Shown here piece after piece: positions 27,417-33,701 of a DNA stretch of 64,000 nucleotides. Source of the stretch: Pseudoalteromonas sp. Scap06 (GTDB lineage: Bacteria > Pseudomonadota > Gammaproteobacteria > Enterobacterales > Alteromonadaceae); assembly GCF_013394165.1 (NCBI RefSeq), contig NZ_CP041331.1, forward strand, positions 558,001 through 622,000, given 5' to 3'. The position numbers and the translations under genes are program-made. The notes below the pieces were generated by a model. The model was not told the origin of the DNA. It saw only the letters and a list, made by a program, of their open reading frames with translations, and searched no databases. Positions within the stretch are counted from its first letter, which is position 1; every line of letters begins with the position of its first letter.

Positions 27417-27544
27417 AAGTTCTCTCCTAATGGCATAGACATAATGACTCCCACACGGTGTTAGCCTCCGCTTTTCGTGGGTTAGCTTAATTCAAAGCCA
27501 GAGCCATAATTAGTTTGTCAATTAACTAAACAGCAGAGGCTAAC

Positions 27545-28698
27545 ATGAACAAACATAGCATACTTTTTATTGGTCTTGATACACATAAAGAATCAATGAA
27601 GTCGCCTATATTGAAGAACATAGAGGGGCTCAACCTGTTCACCTTGGTCGATTCTCTTCTTCCAAAGTGGCCGTTCAAAAGCTTGTTCGTCAGTTTGAAT
27701 CTAAATACTCTGATGCAACGCTTCACTTTGTTTATGAAGCCGGCCCTTGTGGTTATTGGATTTATCGATTGATTACCAGCCTCGGCCATTGCTGTTATGT
27801 GGTTGCCCCGTCTCTTATTCCTAAAAAACTAGGCGAGAAGATTAAAACCGATAAACGTGATGCCCTTAAGCTCGCTAAATTACTTAAATCTGAAGATTTA
27901 ACACCTATTTATGTTCCCGAGCCTGAAGATGAAGCTGTACGTGATTTATCTCGCGCACGCGAAGTAGCCATGAAAGATTTAAAAGATGCTAAATATCAAT
28001 TAAAAGCACTGCTGCTTCGTAATAATATTAATTACAAAGGCACTGCAAATTGGTCACAAAAACATTTACGTTGGCTCACTGAGCTTGTGCTTCCACACCC
28101 AGCACAGCACATCGTTTTACAAGAGTTTTTACAAACAATTACCGAGCGAGTAAGCCGACTTGAACGATGAGATAATGAACTTACACATCACGTCCATCAA
28201 TGGCGTTATTATCTCGTTGTTAAAGCAATACAAGCTATGCGTGGTGTTCGTTTGTTGGTCGCCACCGGCGTTGTGGCTGAGCTCGGCGATTTATCGCGAT
28301 TCGACCATCCCCGCAAATTAATGAGTTACCTCGGTCTTGTACCTAGTGAACACTCGAGTGGTGGCAAACGCCATATTGGCGCCATCACAAAATGCGGAAA
28401 TGGCCGAGCAAGACGCCTTCTTGTGGAAGGTGCACATACTTATCGCTATGCAGCAAATATATCCACAGATATGCAAAAACGACAAGAAGGTTTACCAAAG
28501 GACATTATTGATATTGCGTGGAAAGCACAGCTTAGGCTCTGCAAGCGATATAAAAAAATGATAGCCAAAGGGAAACACTACAATCTGGTTGTTACCGCCA
28601 TTGCCCGAGAAATGATTGCGTACATATGGGCTATTGCAAAAGAAGTGGTGCTTACGCCAGTGAATGCAAAACTTAGATTGGCAAGAGTACCCGCATGA
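27545..28698 (+). pseudogene. IS110/IS1111 transposase, broken by a frameshift and a stop
   Basis: A DEDD-type transposase with a C-terminal transposase_20 domain. The start GLDTHKESM carries the first Asp; a one-base loss near 27600 (a G missing in ATGGAAGTC) breaks the frame, which resumes as VAYIEEHRGAQ in the next frame. FVYEAGPCGYW and KTDKRDALKLA give the acidic Glu and Asp residues. An in-frame TGA at 28168-28170 (a CGA codon changed in REDNEL context) interrupts it again; the frame then continues to SGGKRHIGAITKCGNGRARR and the end. Without the two lesions the protein would be about 384 residues, a normal length. This copy can move only if a transposase is supplied from elsewhere. Confidence 0.85.
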
Positions 28699-29008
28699 TA
28701 AACGAATTAGAGTTAATGCATGGGATCAAGCATCGGGTGTGGCACAACCACCGACGGCGTTAGGATGGCAATGCAGCTAACGCTGCATTGAACCACGAAC
28801 ATAGACTGAAGACAGGTGCCATCGGTGACCGCCACAGGACGCACTAAGTAAGGTCTGCTCTGTTACTAGAAATAGTAAAAACCAACGAATATCAGCAAGA
28901 TAACCGACGACATTACTTGCTTCATCCTATGTATTAACTCGCTCTAATTCGAGCTAAAGTAATTATGGCTTAAAAAGTTAGGCAAGGATCAGTGTGCTTA
29001 ACTTGACA
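28699..29008 (+). ncRNA. non-coding right end of the IS, candidate guide (seek/bridge) RNA
   Basis: About 310 bases without an open frame. It has a perfect hairpin CAATGCAGC-TAAC-GCTGCATTG at 28769-28790 and, just before it, GGCGTTAGG at 28756-28764, which equals the R' core of attC site 1 (GGGCGTTAGGC) and is close to the GGGCGTTGG at the insertion point. In IS1111 elements the 3' non-coding end encodes an RNA whose loops pair with target DNA, so this may be the target guide. A second GTTAGGC lies at 28977. The assignment is by position and this match only. Confidence 0.5.
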
Positions 29009-29018
29009 GTGGGAGTCA

Positions 29019-29125
29019 TACCAACGCCCATTTAAGGGGCTGATAATAGTTTGCTAAAATTGTGTAGCGAAGCGGAACCGAGCAAACTGTTAGCAGCATA
29101 GTCCTGCTTTAAATTCTTGTTATAT
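29019..29125 (-). other. attC site 3, occupied by the IS at its R' end
   Basis: On the minus strand it begins with ATATAAC (29125) near the stop of the methyltransferase gene, has the arms AACAGTTTGCT and AGCAAACTATT, and ends with GGGCGTTGGTAT, where the IS begins. Length 107 bases. Confidence 0.75.
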
Positions 29126-29869: not shown

Positions 29870-31822
29870 TTATGAACAAGTAGCCTCAAGAGATAGCCTT
29901 GACTTCTCTGAAATTAAGTATTGTATAGTGCCATGCACAGAGATAACCCTAGGAAATTTCTTGCAATCCGTCCAAAGATAATTATCAGCAGACCAAATCC
30001 ACTCCGTGAACGGTGATACGACACAACTGTTAACATTCTTAGCCCATGAGAAATCATAATTATTGCCGACTTTGTTTTCCAATACAAAATCTTTAAGAGA
30101 GTCGGCTTGCCCAAGCTTTTCTTTTAAATCCTTTGTTCGTTTCTCGATTGTCTTGGGATTCCCGATATCAAAATTCAACGGCCTTTCTGAGGCCTTACAC
30201 TCAAACAAATATAGGTTATCTTGAATTCTAACAGCTACATCTATTTCACGCTTACTTTCTCCGGATACAATAACAAATGATTTTTTTATTACATCAAAAT
30301 CATTTTCTTCTAAAACATCAGATAAAGTGGCTTCAAACTCATGGCCCTTAATTGATTTAGGGTCGTAATGCCGGAGACCATAAAACATATTTTGAAATAG
30401 AAAGTGCCAAGATGATGAGTCACACAAATACCCCTCATCTAGAGCAATCAATACGTACTGCGGGCCTCTCGACCAAATACCTATATCCCTTTGCTTTTCC
30501 TCACTTAAGATGACGTGGTCAAAAATGGAATCTATTTGATATTCCAGTTCAGACTCTTTAATGTAATAATTATTTTTCAGGCTATCATAATATTTTAAAA
30601 TTTCATCTTTATCTCTTCTAAAGAATGATTTACTGTGCAATACCCTATTAAATTTAGAATGATAACTAAGCCCTATAGACTTATTAATAGCTTTTCTTCT
30701 AGGATCATTTGACATGATATAATTTGAAAGAAAGCCAGCAAATTGAAGAAGCTCAAGAAGCCCGAAACCAAATTTTTTCATGAACTTTTTCGATAAGTAT
30801 GAATGTGAATTATAGAAGTCATTAGAATTAATAAACCAGGGTATATAGTTTGGGGAAAACTCATCTGGCAGGTCAGTAAGGCCCAAAATTTTGGCGGTGT
30901 AATGTGACGCATTAATATATGGAATCAAAATAATTTCATGCGCGCGACTTACATCCTTTAAATTTGAAGCTGTATAAGTCCCAACATTACTAGCAATACC
31001 TAACTGAATATTATCTTCTTCGTTTCTTCTGTCGAAATCTAAAATTAAAGACTCCTGCTCTATTGTCCTTTCCTCTGTTACATCACCCAAATCAGAAATC
31101 GACAGTGCAATACCTTTTCCTAGAGATCGCATCTTAGCTGAAACATACCAATACTGGTAAGAAATTCCTTCTATATAATAAACATCAAGAACATCATCAA
31201 CTTTAAAGTCAGTTAAAACCCACTGAGGACTTCTCTTCAATTCTTTTTCATAAAAAGAAACAATTTTTCTTTCAAAATTCTTGGTGTAAGATTTCTTTAG
31301 GAGCCCCCCTAAAATCAAGCCAAAATCAGCATTAGAAGACAAGGAGAAATCATTGTTACACGATAGTTTTCCATATTTTTTAATCGCTTGCTCTGCTTGT
31401 TGCCTAACATTTACAGTTACAGATTCACTTGTATTTGCACCCAAATCTTCAGCCAAGCATGGAGCTATTCGCCTGTAAAGATGAAGCCAGAAGAATACGG
31501 AATGCCTCTTTATTACTCGCCCCATTTCTTCTTCTAGTACACACAAAATATTTTGCAGCACTTCATACTGTTGATAATGATCCTTGCCAATAATTAGGTA
31601 TTTGTATTTACAGATCGCATCACGCCTAAAAGATTGAGAATCTAAAACGTATTTTTGGTATATCTCATCTCTGTAGATGTCATGGATCTCTGAAAATACC
31701 AATTGGTAATACTCGGGAAGAGCTAACACTTTAGTGGCTTTGCCTGCATTAGAGCTTCTTGATCCACTTTTTATTTTATTAACACGTTTTTTTCGATTTA
31801 AAGATCTTCTATTTTTTTTCAC
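29870..31822 (-). CDS. large cassette protein with a PD-(D/E)XK nuclease-like C-terminus
   Basis: A 650-residue protein with a very basic start (KKNRRSLNRKKRVNKIKSGS) and a long, mostly helical middle that I do not recognise. Residues about 492-545 carry the order KGHEFEATL, REIDVAV with Asp528, and LFECKAS with Glu541-x-Lys543, which is the E ... D ... ExK active-site pattern of restriction-like endonucleases. Such proteins in integron cassettes have repeatedly turned out to be anti-phage defence genes; this is an inference here. GTG is the likely start. At nearly 2 kb it is a large cassette. Codon use is AT-rich. Confidence 0.65.
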   Translation of the reverse strand: MKKNRRSLNRKKRVNKIKSGSRSSNAGKATKVLALPEYYQLVFSEIHDIYRDEIYQKYVLDSQSFRRDAICKYKYLIIGKDHYQQYEVLQNILCVLEEEMGRVIKRHSVFFWLHLYRRIAPCLAEDLGANTSESVTVNVRQQAEQAIKKYGKLSCNNDFSLSSNADFGLILGGLLKKSYTKNFERKIVSFYEKELKRSPQWVLTDFKVDDVLDVYYIEGISYQYWYVSAKMRSLGKGIALSISDLGDVTEERTIEQESLILDFDRRNEEDNIQLGIASNVGTYTASNLKDVSRAHEIILIPYINASHYTAKILGLTDLPDEFSPNYIPWFINSNDFYNSHSYLSKKFMKKFGFGLLELLQFAGFLSNYIMSNDPRRKAINKSIGLSYHSKFNRVLHSKSFFRRDKDEILKYYDSLKNNYYIKESELEYQIDSIFDHVILSEEKQRDIGIWSRGPQYVLIALDEGYLCDSSSWHFLFQNMFYGLRHYDPKSIKGHEFEATLSDVLEENDFDVIKKSFVIVSGESKREIDVAVRIQDNLYLFECKASERPLNFDIGNPKTIEKRTKDLKEKLGQADSLKDFVLENKVGNNYDFSWAKNVNSCVVSPFTEWIWSADNYLWTDCKKFPRVISVHGTIQYLISEKSRLSLEATCS

Positions 31823-32597: not shown

Positions 32598-32695
32598 ACA
32601 TTGCTATATATAATTTTTTATTAGCACTCAAACTCTCAATAAAAGAGAAAATGCGCTCGCCGCTCATTTTCTTGAATATGTGTGCATCACAACTA

Positions 32696-32715
32696 TACTG
32701 TATATAAAAACAGCA
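32696..32715 (+). promoter_or_regulatory. LexA (SOS) box upstream of intI
   Basis: TACTGTATATAAAAACAGCA matches the E. coli LexA consensus TACTGTATATATATACAGTA at 17 of 20 positions, with both CTG/CAG half-sites intact. It ends 17 bases before the intI start, so LexA would block transcription of the integrase until DNA damage. Confidence 0.8.
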
Positions 32716-32732
32716 CTATTATTGGTAATAGT

Positions 32733-33701
32733 ATGAAAACACGTTCCCCATTTTTAAATTACATAGCTGAATATATGCTAGTTCGTCAATATTCATTACG
32801 CACCGTAGATACCTACCTAAGATGGATTGCATCTTATATCCATTTTCATAATAAACGCCATCCCGCCTCAATGGGGGACAATGAAGTCGAACGCTACTTA
32901 GAACATTTAGTGTTAAAGCAAAACGTTGCACCACGTACGCAAGCCACCGCACTCAATTCATTGTCATTTTTATACAAGCACATAATAAAAAAAGAACTCT
33001 CATTAAATTTAAATTTTGCCCATAGTAAAAAACAAGCAAAGCTCCCTGTAGTGATGACCCAAGAGGAAGTTAAAATGTTGATGGCTCATTTAAATAAGCG
33101 CTATTATTTAATTGCAGCCCTCATGTATGGAAGTGGCTTAAGAGTAATGGAAGCGGTGCAATTAAGAGTGAAAGATATTGATTTTGATTATAAATGCATT
33201 CAAGTATGGAATGGAAAAGGTAATAAACACCGCATTGTTACGCTGGCCACAGAGCTAATACCTATGCTAAGAAATCAAATTTTGAACGTTGATGACTATT
33301 TAAAACTGGATTTAAATAATACGGAATATGCTGGTGTATGGATGCCATATGCTTTAACAAAAAAATATCCAAGTGCCGCAAAATCGCTTGCGTGGCAGTA
33401 TTTATTTCCTTCTCATATATTAAGTTCAGATCCTCAAAGTGGTGAAATAAGACGACATCATTTTCATCACTCTTGTATTAGAAAAGAGGTTAAAAGAGCC
33501 GTCCAAAAATCAGGATTAACAAAAATAATAACACCTCATACATTAAGACACTCTTTTGCTACTCATCTACTGCAAAATGGCGCCGATATAAGAACTGTTC
33601 AAGCTCAGCTTGGCCATTCTGATGTTAAAACCACACAAATATATACCCATGTACTGCAACAAGGTGCCAACGGGGTTGTTAGCCCTTTTTCAAGATTATA
33701 A
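32733..33701 (+). CDS. intI: integron integrase IntI
   Basis: A 322-residue tyrosine recombinase of normal IntI length. It catalyses insertion and excision of cassettes at attI and attC. Catalytic residues are visible: Arg137 (GSGLRVMEA), Lys162 (NGKGNKH), His269 and Arg272 (HTLRHSFATH), His295 (LGHSD) and Tyr304 (TTQIYTHV). The IntI-specific extra segment SLAWQYLFPSHILSSDPQSG and RRHHFH is present, which distinguishes it from XerC/D. I chose the ATG at 32733 because the LexA box ends at 32715, which rules out the longer frame. It looks intact. Confidence 0.93.
   Translation: MKTRSPFLNYIAEYMLVRQYSLRTVDTYLRWIASYIHFHNKRHPASMGDNEVERYLEHLVLKQNVAPRTQATALNSLSFLYKHIIKKELSLNLNFAHSKKQAKLPVVMTQEEVKMLMAHLNKRYYLIAALMYGSGLRVMEAVQLRVKDIDFDYKCIQVWNGKGNKHRIVTLATELIPMLRNQILNVDDYLKLDLNNTEYAGVWMPYALTKKYPSAAKSLAWQYLFPSHILSSDPQSGEIRRHHFHHSCIRKEVKRAVQKSGLTKIITPHTLRHSFATHLLQNGADIRTVQAQLGHSDVKTTQIYTHVLQQGANGVVSPFSRL

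Follow-up and report, generated by a model that had tools for sequence, protein, structure and literature searches.

The window, that is, the whole stretch of 64,000 nucleotides that was analysed, carries what is very probably a decayed attC-targeting IS1111-type element, of a kind whose intact relatives find the sequence T|AACGCC by means of a seekRNA and which inserts without duplicating its target. The ends of the element were fixed to within one base, the structure of the RNA region in its 3' end is conserved, and both guides in that region covary with the sequences flanking the insertions.

Extent, ends and state of the element

Comparison of copies placed the element at 27437-29022 on the + strand. 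An earlier note had proposed an IS1111-type element at the R' end of an attC site within 28699-29125; the type and the attC location were borne out, but the element is wider than that interval. Its layout is that described for IS1111 elements in PMC11187229, with subterminal inverted repeats of 11-13 bp set in from the ends by a 7-bp left and a 3-bp right extension. The left extension, AGACATA (27437-27443, +), was placed to within one base from the empty sites of relatives; it is followed by the left inverted repeat ATGACTCCCAC (27444-27454, +), which forms a perfect 11-bp repeat with GTGGGAGTCAT on the right (29009-29019, +), and the element closes with the right extension ACC (29020-29022, +), identified by copy comparison and from the relatives' empty sites. 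A total of 156 raw copies was reduced to 108 unique insertions by removing 23 without acceptable inverted repeats and 25 duplicates, and among these the left extension was AGACATA in 78, AGACACA in 21, AGACATT in 8 and AAACATA in 1. The placement of the ends was chosen by the IS1111 7/3 rule; moving both ends one base further to the right fits equally well, because A is the first base of the element and also of the right flank.

The transposase gene (27545-28698, +) is broken, the frame being lost near its 5' end and an in-frame stop occurring mid-gene, so that it is represented by the open reading frames 27667-28170, which matches PF01548, and 28237-28698, which matches PF02371. These two domains, which mark an IS1111 DEDD transposase, are present both in the window pieces and in an intact copy (L003). 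Downstream of the gene lies the long non-coding region expected of an IS1111 element (28699-29022, +, 324 nt), which contains the guide-RNA region. In alignments, roughly 15 bases of the window copy, in the 3' arm of the RNA's closing stem (28822-28836, approximate limits, +), are missing from the 9 other copies aligned; a different insert was present at the equivalent place in 1 of 34 RNA representatives (L153). The predicted fold of the window RNA region also differed from those of 3 relatives folded alongside it. Given the broken transposase gene and the altered closing stem, the copy in the window is probably an immobile, decayed relic. The source genome consists of 2 contigs, and the other contig (C1) holds 2 further copies with open frames of 402 aa that are 99% identical to the window element over the C-terminal part; judged by their sequences, these two copies are intact.

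The attC site and the insertion boundary

The occupied attC site extends from R' to R'' at 29023-29094 on the - strand, with the last bases of R' sitting across the element, before 27437. It was recognised from its sequence and from a near-identical attC without an insertion that another genome of the genus carries (L170); the right flank, AACGCCCATTTAAGGGGC...GCAAACTGTTAG, differs from this attC by one base. The window element is therefore inserted at one end of an attC, as are the attC-targeting IS1111 elements. Because 29020-29022 (ACC) is the element's own right extension, the occupied R' reads GGGCGTT^A once these bases are removed, and not GGGCGTTGG; the "GTTGG" that had been taken for the attC R' owes its last two bases to the right end of the element. 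The cassettes of the array run leftwards from an integron integrase-like tyrosine recombinase gene (32682-33701, +; PF00589 and PF13495). A 650-aa open reading frame in the same array (29870-31822) had no Pfam match at E 0.001.

The boundary itself was read from natural empty sites of relatives. The copy on a Klebsiella pneumoniae plasmid (L013) lies between GCATCT and AACGCC, and both of the two plasmids examined that lack the copy read GCATCTAACGCC. The site of L051, CACAATCAT|AATGCT, was uninterrupted in 5/5 relatives (AATG in 4, AATACT in 1), and that of L052, GGTAATTT|AATGTC (ATAATTT|AATGTC), in 2/5; of the remaining relatives, one had diverged (GATGTC, with 8 mismatches) and two had no match to the search pattern. 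For these three relatives' insertions the empty sites join the two flanks directly, with no target duplication. On the basis of these empty sites, the element inserts, to within one base, between T and AACGCC, inside the R' end of attC.

A conserved RNA structure in the 3' end

The RNA region of the window copy (28737-28827, +) was recognised by our covariance model R1 with a score of 101.7 bits (E 1.6e-24) and by folding, and has a seekRNA-like structure. The alignment behind the structure comprised 33 diverse 3' ends over 92 columns, and the structure was named from the fold of L003; it had started from 34 representatives, chosen without L026, L031, L034 and L035 (no 3' anchor), L036, L082, L094, L140 and the window copy, and L153 was then left out of the alignment (A2). 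The paired parts of the structure are a closing stem (7 bp), a hairpin (9 bp) and a helix (3 bp). Across its 19 pairs, 95.5% of the cells were paired and 13/19 pairs had changed on both sides, and for each of five measures 500 shuffles gave no value as high. RNAalifold agreed on the closing stem and on most of the hairpin; it also paired guide columns 22-23 with columns 16-17, where the bases are nearly invariant and the data are neutral. Rfam had no family at gathering score within the window.

The motif GGCGTTAGG, noted earlier at 28756-28764 on the + strand, which is also the transposase strand, is present and is conserved among relatives, but the match to the target is confined to GGCGTTA (28756-28762, +). 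This is the 5' guide: it lies within the 5' strand of the internal loop, is unpaired in the structure that was counted, covaries with the right flank, and is complementary to the top strand of the target's right half (AACGCC) together with the T that precedes it. The perfect 9-base hairpin reported to follow the motif, CAATGCAGC-TAAC-GCTGCATTG (28769-28790, +), is there too, 4 nt further on; it separates the two guides, and 8/9 of its pairs had changed on both sides in the 33 relatives. The 3' guide, ACAT (28799-28802, +), precedes AGACTGA; its pairing partner is the bottom strand of the target's left half, and position -2 of the left flank covaries with it. Two target matches thus lie within one structured RNA, the top-strand match first, as in a seekRNA, the second guide being weaker than the first. 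The hairpin loop TAACGC (28778-28783) was considered as a bottom-strand guide and dropped in favour of 28799-28802, since the stem is conserved and the loop is not. A donor guide was also sought, by setting the right end of the element (ACC or ATC) against ATACC or ATATC further along the RNA; no covariation was seen by eye among the 34 representatives, and no convincing donor guide was found in the RNA region.

Several copies carry rearrangements in or near this region. In L036, L082 and L094 about 45 extra bases, starting with a GCCTACATGGATG-type hairpin, interrupt the 5' guide loop midway and split off GGGCRTT, and the length of the match and the motif suggest a similar insertion of about 45 bases in L215. 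Five Pseudoalteromonas genomes (L026, L031, L032, L034 and L035) share a 64-bp insert at one position of the 3' non-coding end, about 135 bp before the right end. In L208 (1501-1600) the 5' half of the RNA is followed directly by sequence resembling the middle of an attC.

Covariation of guides and targets

The guide was compared with its target in 98 of the 108 insertions at first, and loci added later brought the set to 130, of which 119 had both a guide and a 6-nt right flank. Left out of the counts were L197 and L208 (motif missed), L203 (no right end), L140 (bad right end), and L036, L082, L094 and L215 (guide split by extra bases, or none found). The base before the element was T in all 125 copies with a left flank, and the right flank began with AAC in 116 of the 119 insertions, with AAT in 2 and with AGC in 1. 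The 5' guide paired with its own right flank at 676/714 positions, compared with a mean of 658.9 and a maximum of 669-670 in 20,000 shuffles, and all six bases paired in 91/119 insertions. When L051, L052 and L120 were removed, 660/696 positions paired, against a shuffle maximum of 659 (0/20,000 as high). Changes in the guide of related elements thus tend to go with changes in the insertion site, as the earlier note had proposed should be looked for. The covariation rests on few variants, most copies sharing one guide, and the figures overstate independence, because related copies share ancestry.

The cleanest evidence comes from a comparison within one genome. L051 and L052, with the guide GGCATT, share a Pseudoalteromonas genome with four sisters that have GGCGTT and sit at AACGCC or AACACT; they differ from these sisters at few positions, one of which is in the guide. 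AATG sites were occupied by both copies with GGCATT (2/2) and by none of the other 117 counted insertions. L051 and L052 pair at 5/6 guide positions, where GGCGTT would pair at 4; the genes that contain their sites in sister species encode a UvrD-helicase domain and a FadL-type porin domain, and neither right flank is hairpin-like. On balance, we favour the view that in this group an element specialised for attC is diverted from integrons to ordinary chromosomal genes by one natural base change in its guide. Our confidence in this is held down because L082, whose guide is split by extra bases and which was not counted, reads GGGCATT yet sits at AACGCC, and because the AATG sites pair at only 5/6 positions.

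The match between guide and target in relatives need not be perfect, as there are copies with GGTGTTA and sites matched at only 3-4/6 positions, among them those of L012, L112 and L153, which sit at AACTTT or AACTTC with unmatched guides. L120 has the guide AAAAAGTT at the site AACTTTTC, a kind of site also hit by relatives with unmatched guides, and it hints that an element may first land at a site in error and its guide adapt to that site afterwards.

For the second guide, a C before TAGAC went with a C at position -2 of the left flank in 9/12 insertions, against 19/110 otherwise (Fisher p 7.6e-5), but 5 of the 9 matches are copies in one Alteromonas gracilis genome and so are non-independent. 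This association is weak, in that A-type guides have an A at -2 in only 77/109 cases. A 72-bp mini-element on a P. xiamenensis plasmid (L016:1502-1573) consists only of the two IS ends, without a guide, at T|AATGCC, and was probably moved in trans.

Distribution of relatives

A match to the last 436 bp of the element was found in 32/99 genomes of the genus, its own included and some of the matches partial, and a strict search of the order with the RNA model gave hits in 18/394 genomes and 11/114 genera. The relatives found were mostly from marine Gammaproteobacteria, together with the one K. pneumoniae plasmid. The guide analysis covered the closer relatives; of the more distant ones on plasmids, about 41-51% identical, four (L181-L184) were searched with the RNA model, which had no match in them. 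Two plasmids of Pseudoalteromonas sp. CuT4-3 (L009 and L010) have copies with the same right flank and different left flanks, as if the plasmids had recombined at the element. Full-length transposase matches also occur on contigs classed as viral in IMG/VR (L167 and L168).

attC hairpin or linear sequence

The preference for attC could in principle reside in the transposase, which would recognise the folded attC hairpin or a protein bound to attC, leaving GGCGTTA incidental or a relic. Hairpin-like right flanks were indeed far more frequent than chance would give, being found at p<=0.01 in at least 49/96 testable sites and in 5/200 control pieces; the first figure is a lower bound, as some sites that look attC-like by eye were missed, and 11 further flanks were too short for the test. 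The control pieces, cut from the collected loci and from the window itself, had not been filtered for attC. (A first attC classifier, which gave 46/97 at p<=0.05, was discarded as too weak when the window's own attC failed it, p 0.455.) However, such enrichment would be expected simply from the presence of AACGCC in attC sites, and the covariation of flank and guide speaks against an incidental motif. Other copies sit at linear sites that share little beyond T|AACG or T|AATG, and the insertions inside the UvrD-helicase and FadL-type porin genes largely refute recognition of the folded site, which we regard as very unlikely. As only about half of the testable sites are hairpin-like, and some relatives' sites look linear by eye, the element seems to read a short linear sequence that attC carries, rather than attC as such. 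The earlier suggestion that the guide reads the conserved integron core seems to hold for AACGCC as a sequence and not for attC as such.

The motif might alternatively be a piece of attC captured through integron recombination, with no role in targeting, and, as had been pointed out, GGCGTTAGG is identical to the core of R' in attC site 1 of this array. Against this, relatives from several families and genera keep it in the same position of a conserved RNA structure, and its variants go with variant targets and do not stay attC-like, which makes capture even less probable than hairpin recognition. Least credible is a chance match. Although the motif is short, and the window has 6 copies of GGCGTTA on the + strand and 9 on the - strand, the number expected by base composition on one strand of the 324-nt end is 0.0008 for the 9-mer and 0.017 for the 7-mer, and the conservation and covariation in relatives refute it.

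Discussion

The reading that we prefer, targeting by a guide RNA, can be set out as follows. In intact relatives the 3' end would be transcribed into a seekRNA, which would bind the DEDD transposase, with catalysis to follow, as published work on such elements suggests. This RNA would be built of a closing stem, an internal loop and a hairpin. GGCGTTA, on the 5' side of the loop, would pair with T|AACGCC, the right target half and R' end of attC, on the top strand, and the 3' side of the loop (ACAT or a variant, before AGACTGA) would pair with the bottom strand of the left half, so directing insertion between T and AACGCC without duplication. The proposal in the earlier note that such a guide explains how the element finds attC is supported by the position of GGCGTTA within the unpaired part of the conserved loop, not outside it, its antisense relation to the target strand and its covariation with the target.

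Elements of the IS1111-attC group, attributed to Tetu and Holmes in 2008 and Post and Hall in 2009, are said to be IS1111-type elements specific for attC, and the element described here appears to be of the same kind, a comparison that draws on citing papers. The targeting of attC by IS1111 elements is treated as known in PMC11616780, PMC9229058 and PMC11089894; in Shewanella, PMC9229058 found no IS interrupting attC. Nor is RNA-guided finding of attC a new idea, since PMC11187229 shows that ISKpn4 and ISPst6, which target one attC end, make seekRNAs, and ISPa25 is predicted there to act likewise (PMC11187229; Siddiquee et al. 2024). In the seekRNAs of ISKpn4, ISPst6, ISEc11 and ISPa11 the top-strand match lies 5' of the bottom-strand match (PMC11187229). 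Going by these published descriptions, the window element shares with ISKpn4, ISPst6 and ISPa25 the non-coding region downstream of tnp, the insertion at an attC end and the order of the RNA matches. ISEc11 is reprogrammable and has a naturally redirected relative (PMC11187229). The related elements ISEc11 and ISXne4, as presented in that source, likewise differ in their guides and, correspondingly, in their targets, but their transposases are 72% identical, whereas here one guide base separates near-identical copies in the same genome.

The same layout, an internal loop with guide strands on both sides, is seen in the IS110/IS621 bridge RNA, and PMC11208160 predicts bridge RNAs in 93% of IS1111 elements. 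The window element differs from IS110/IS621 in that no convincing donor guide was found in it. In the IS110 group the bridge RNA lies mostly at the left end and has a donor-binding loop.

A search of the literature, at the level of titles and the beginnings of abstracts, found none among the papers listed that names this marine group or a natural retargeting by one base. The mechanism as such has already been published, and the element and its relatives include a good natural example of apparent guide-directed retargeting. More than 100 natural insertions have guides that can be read, and for some the empty site is present in a sister genome; they provide a set in which the importance of each guide position can be judged and which is suited to the study of how RNA-guided elements change their targets. 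For one more bacterial group, they explain why integron arrays gather such elements.
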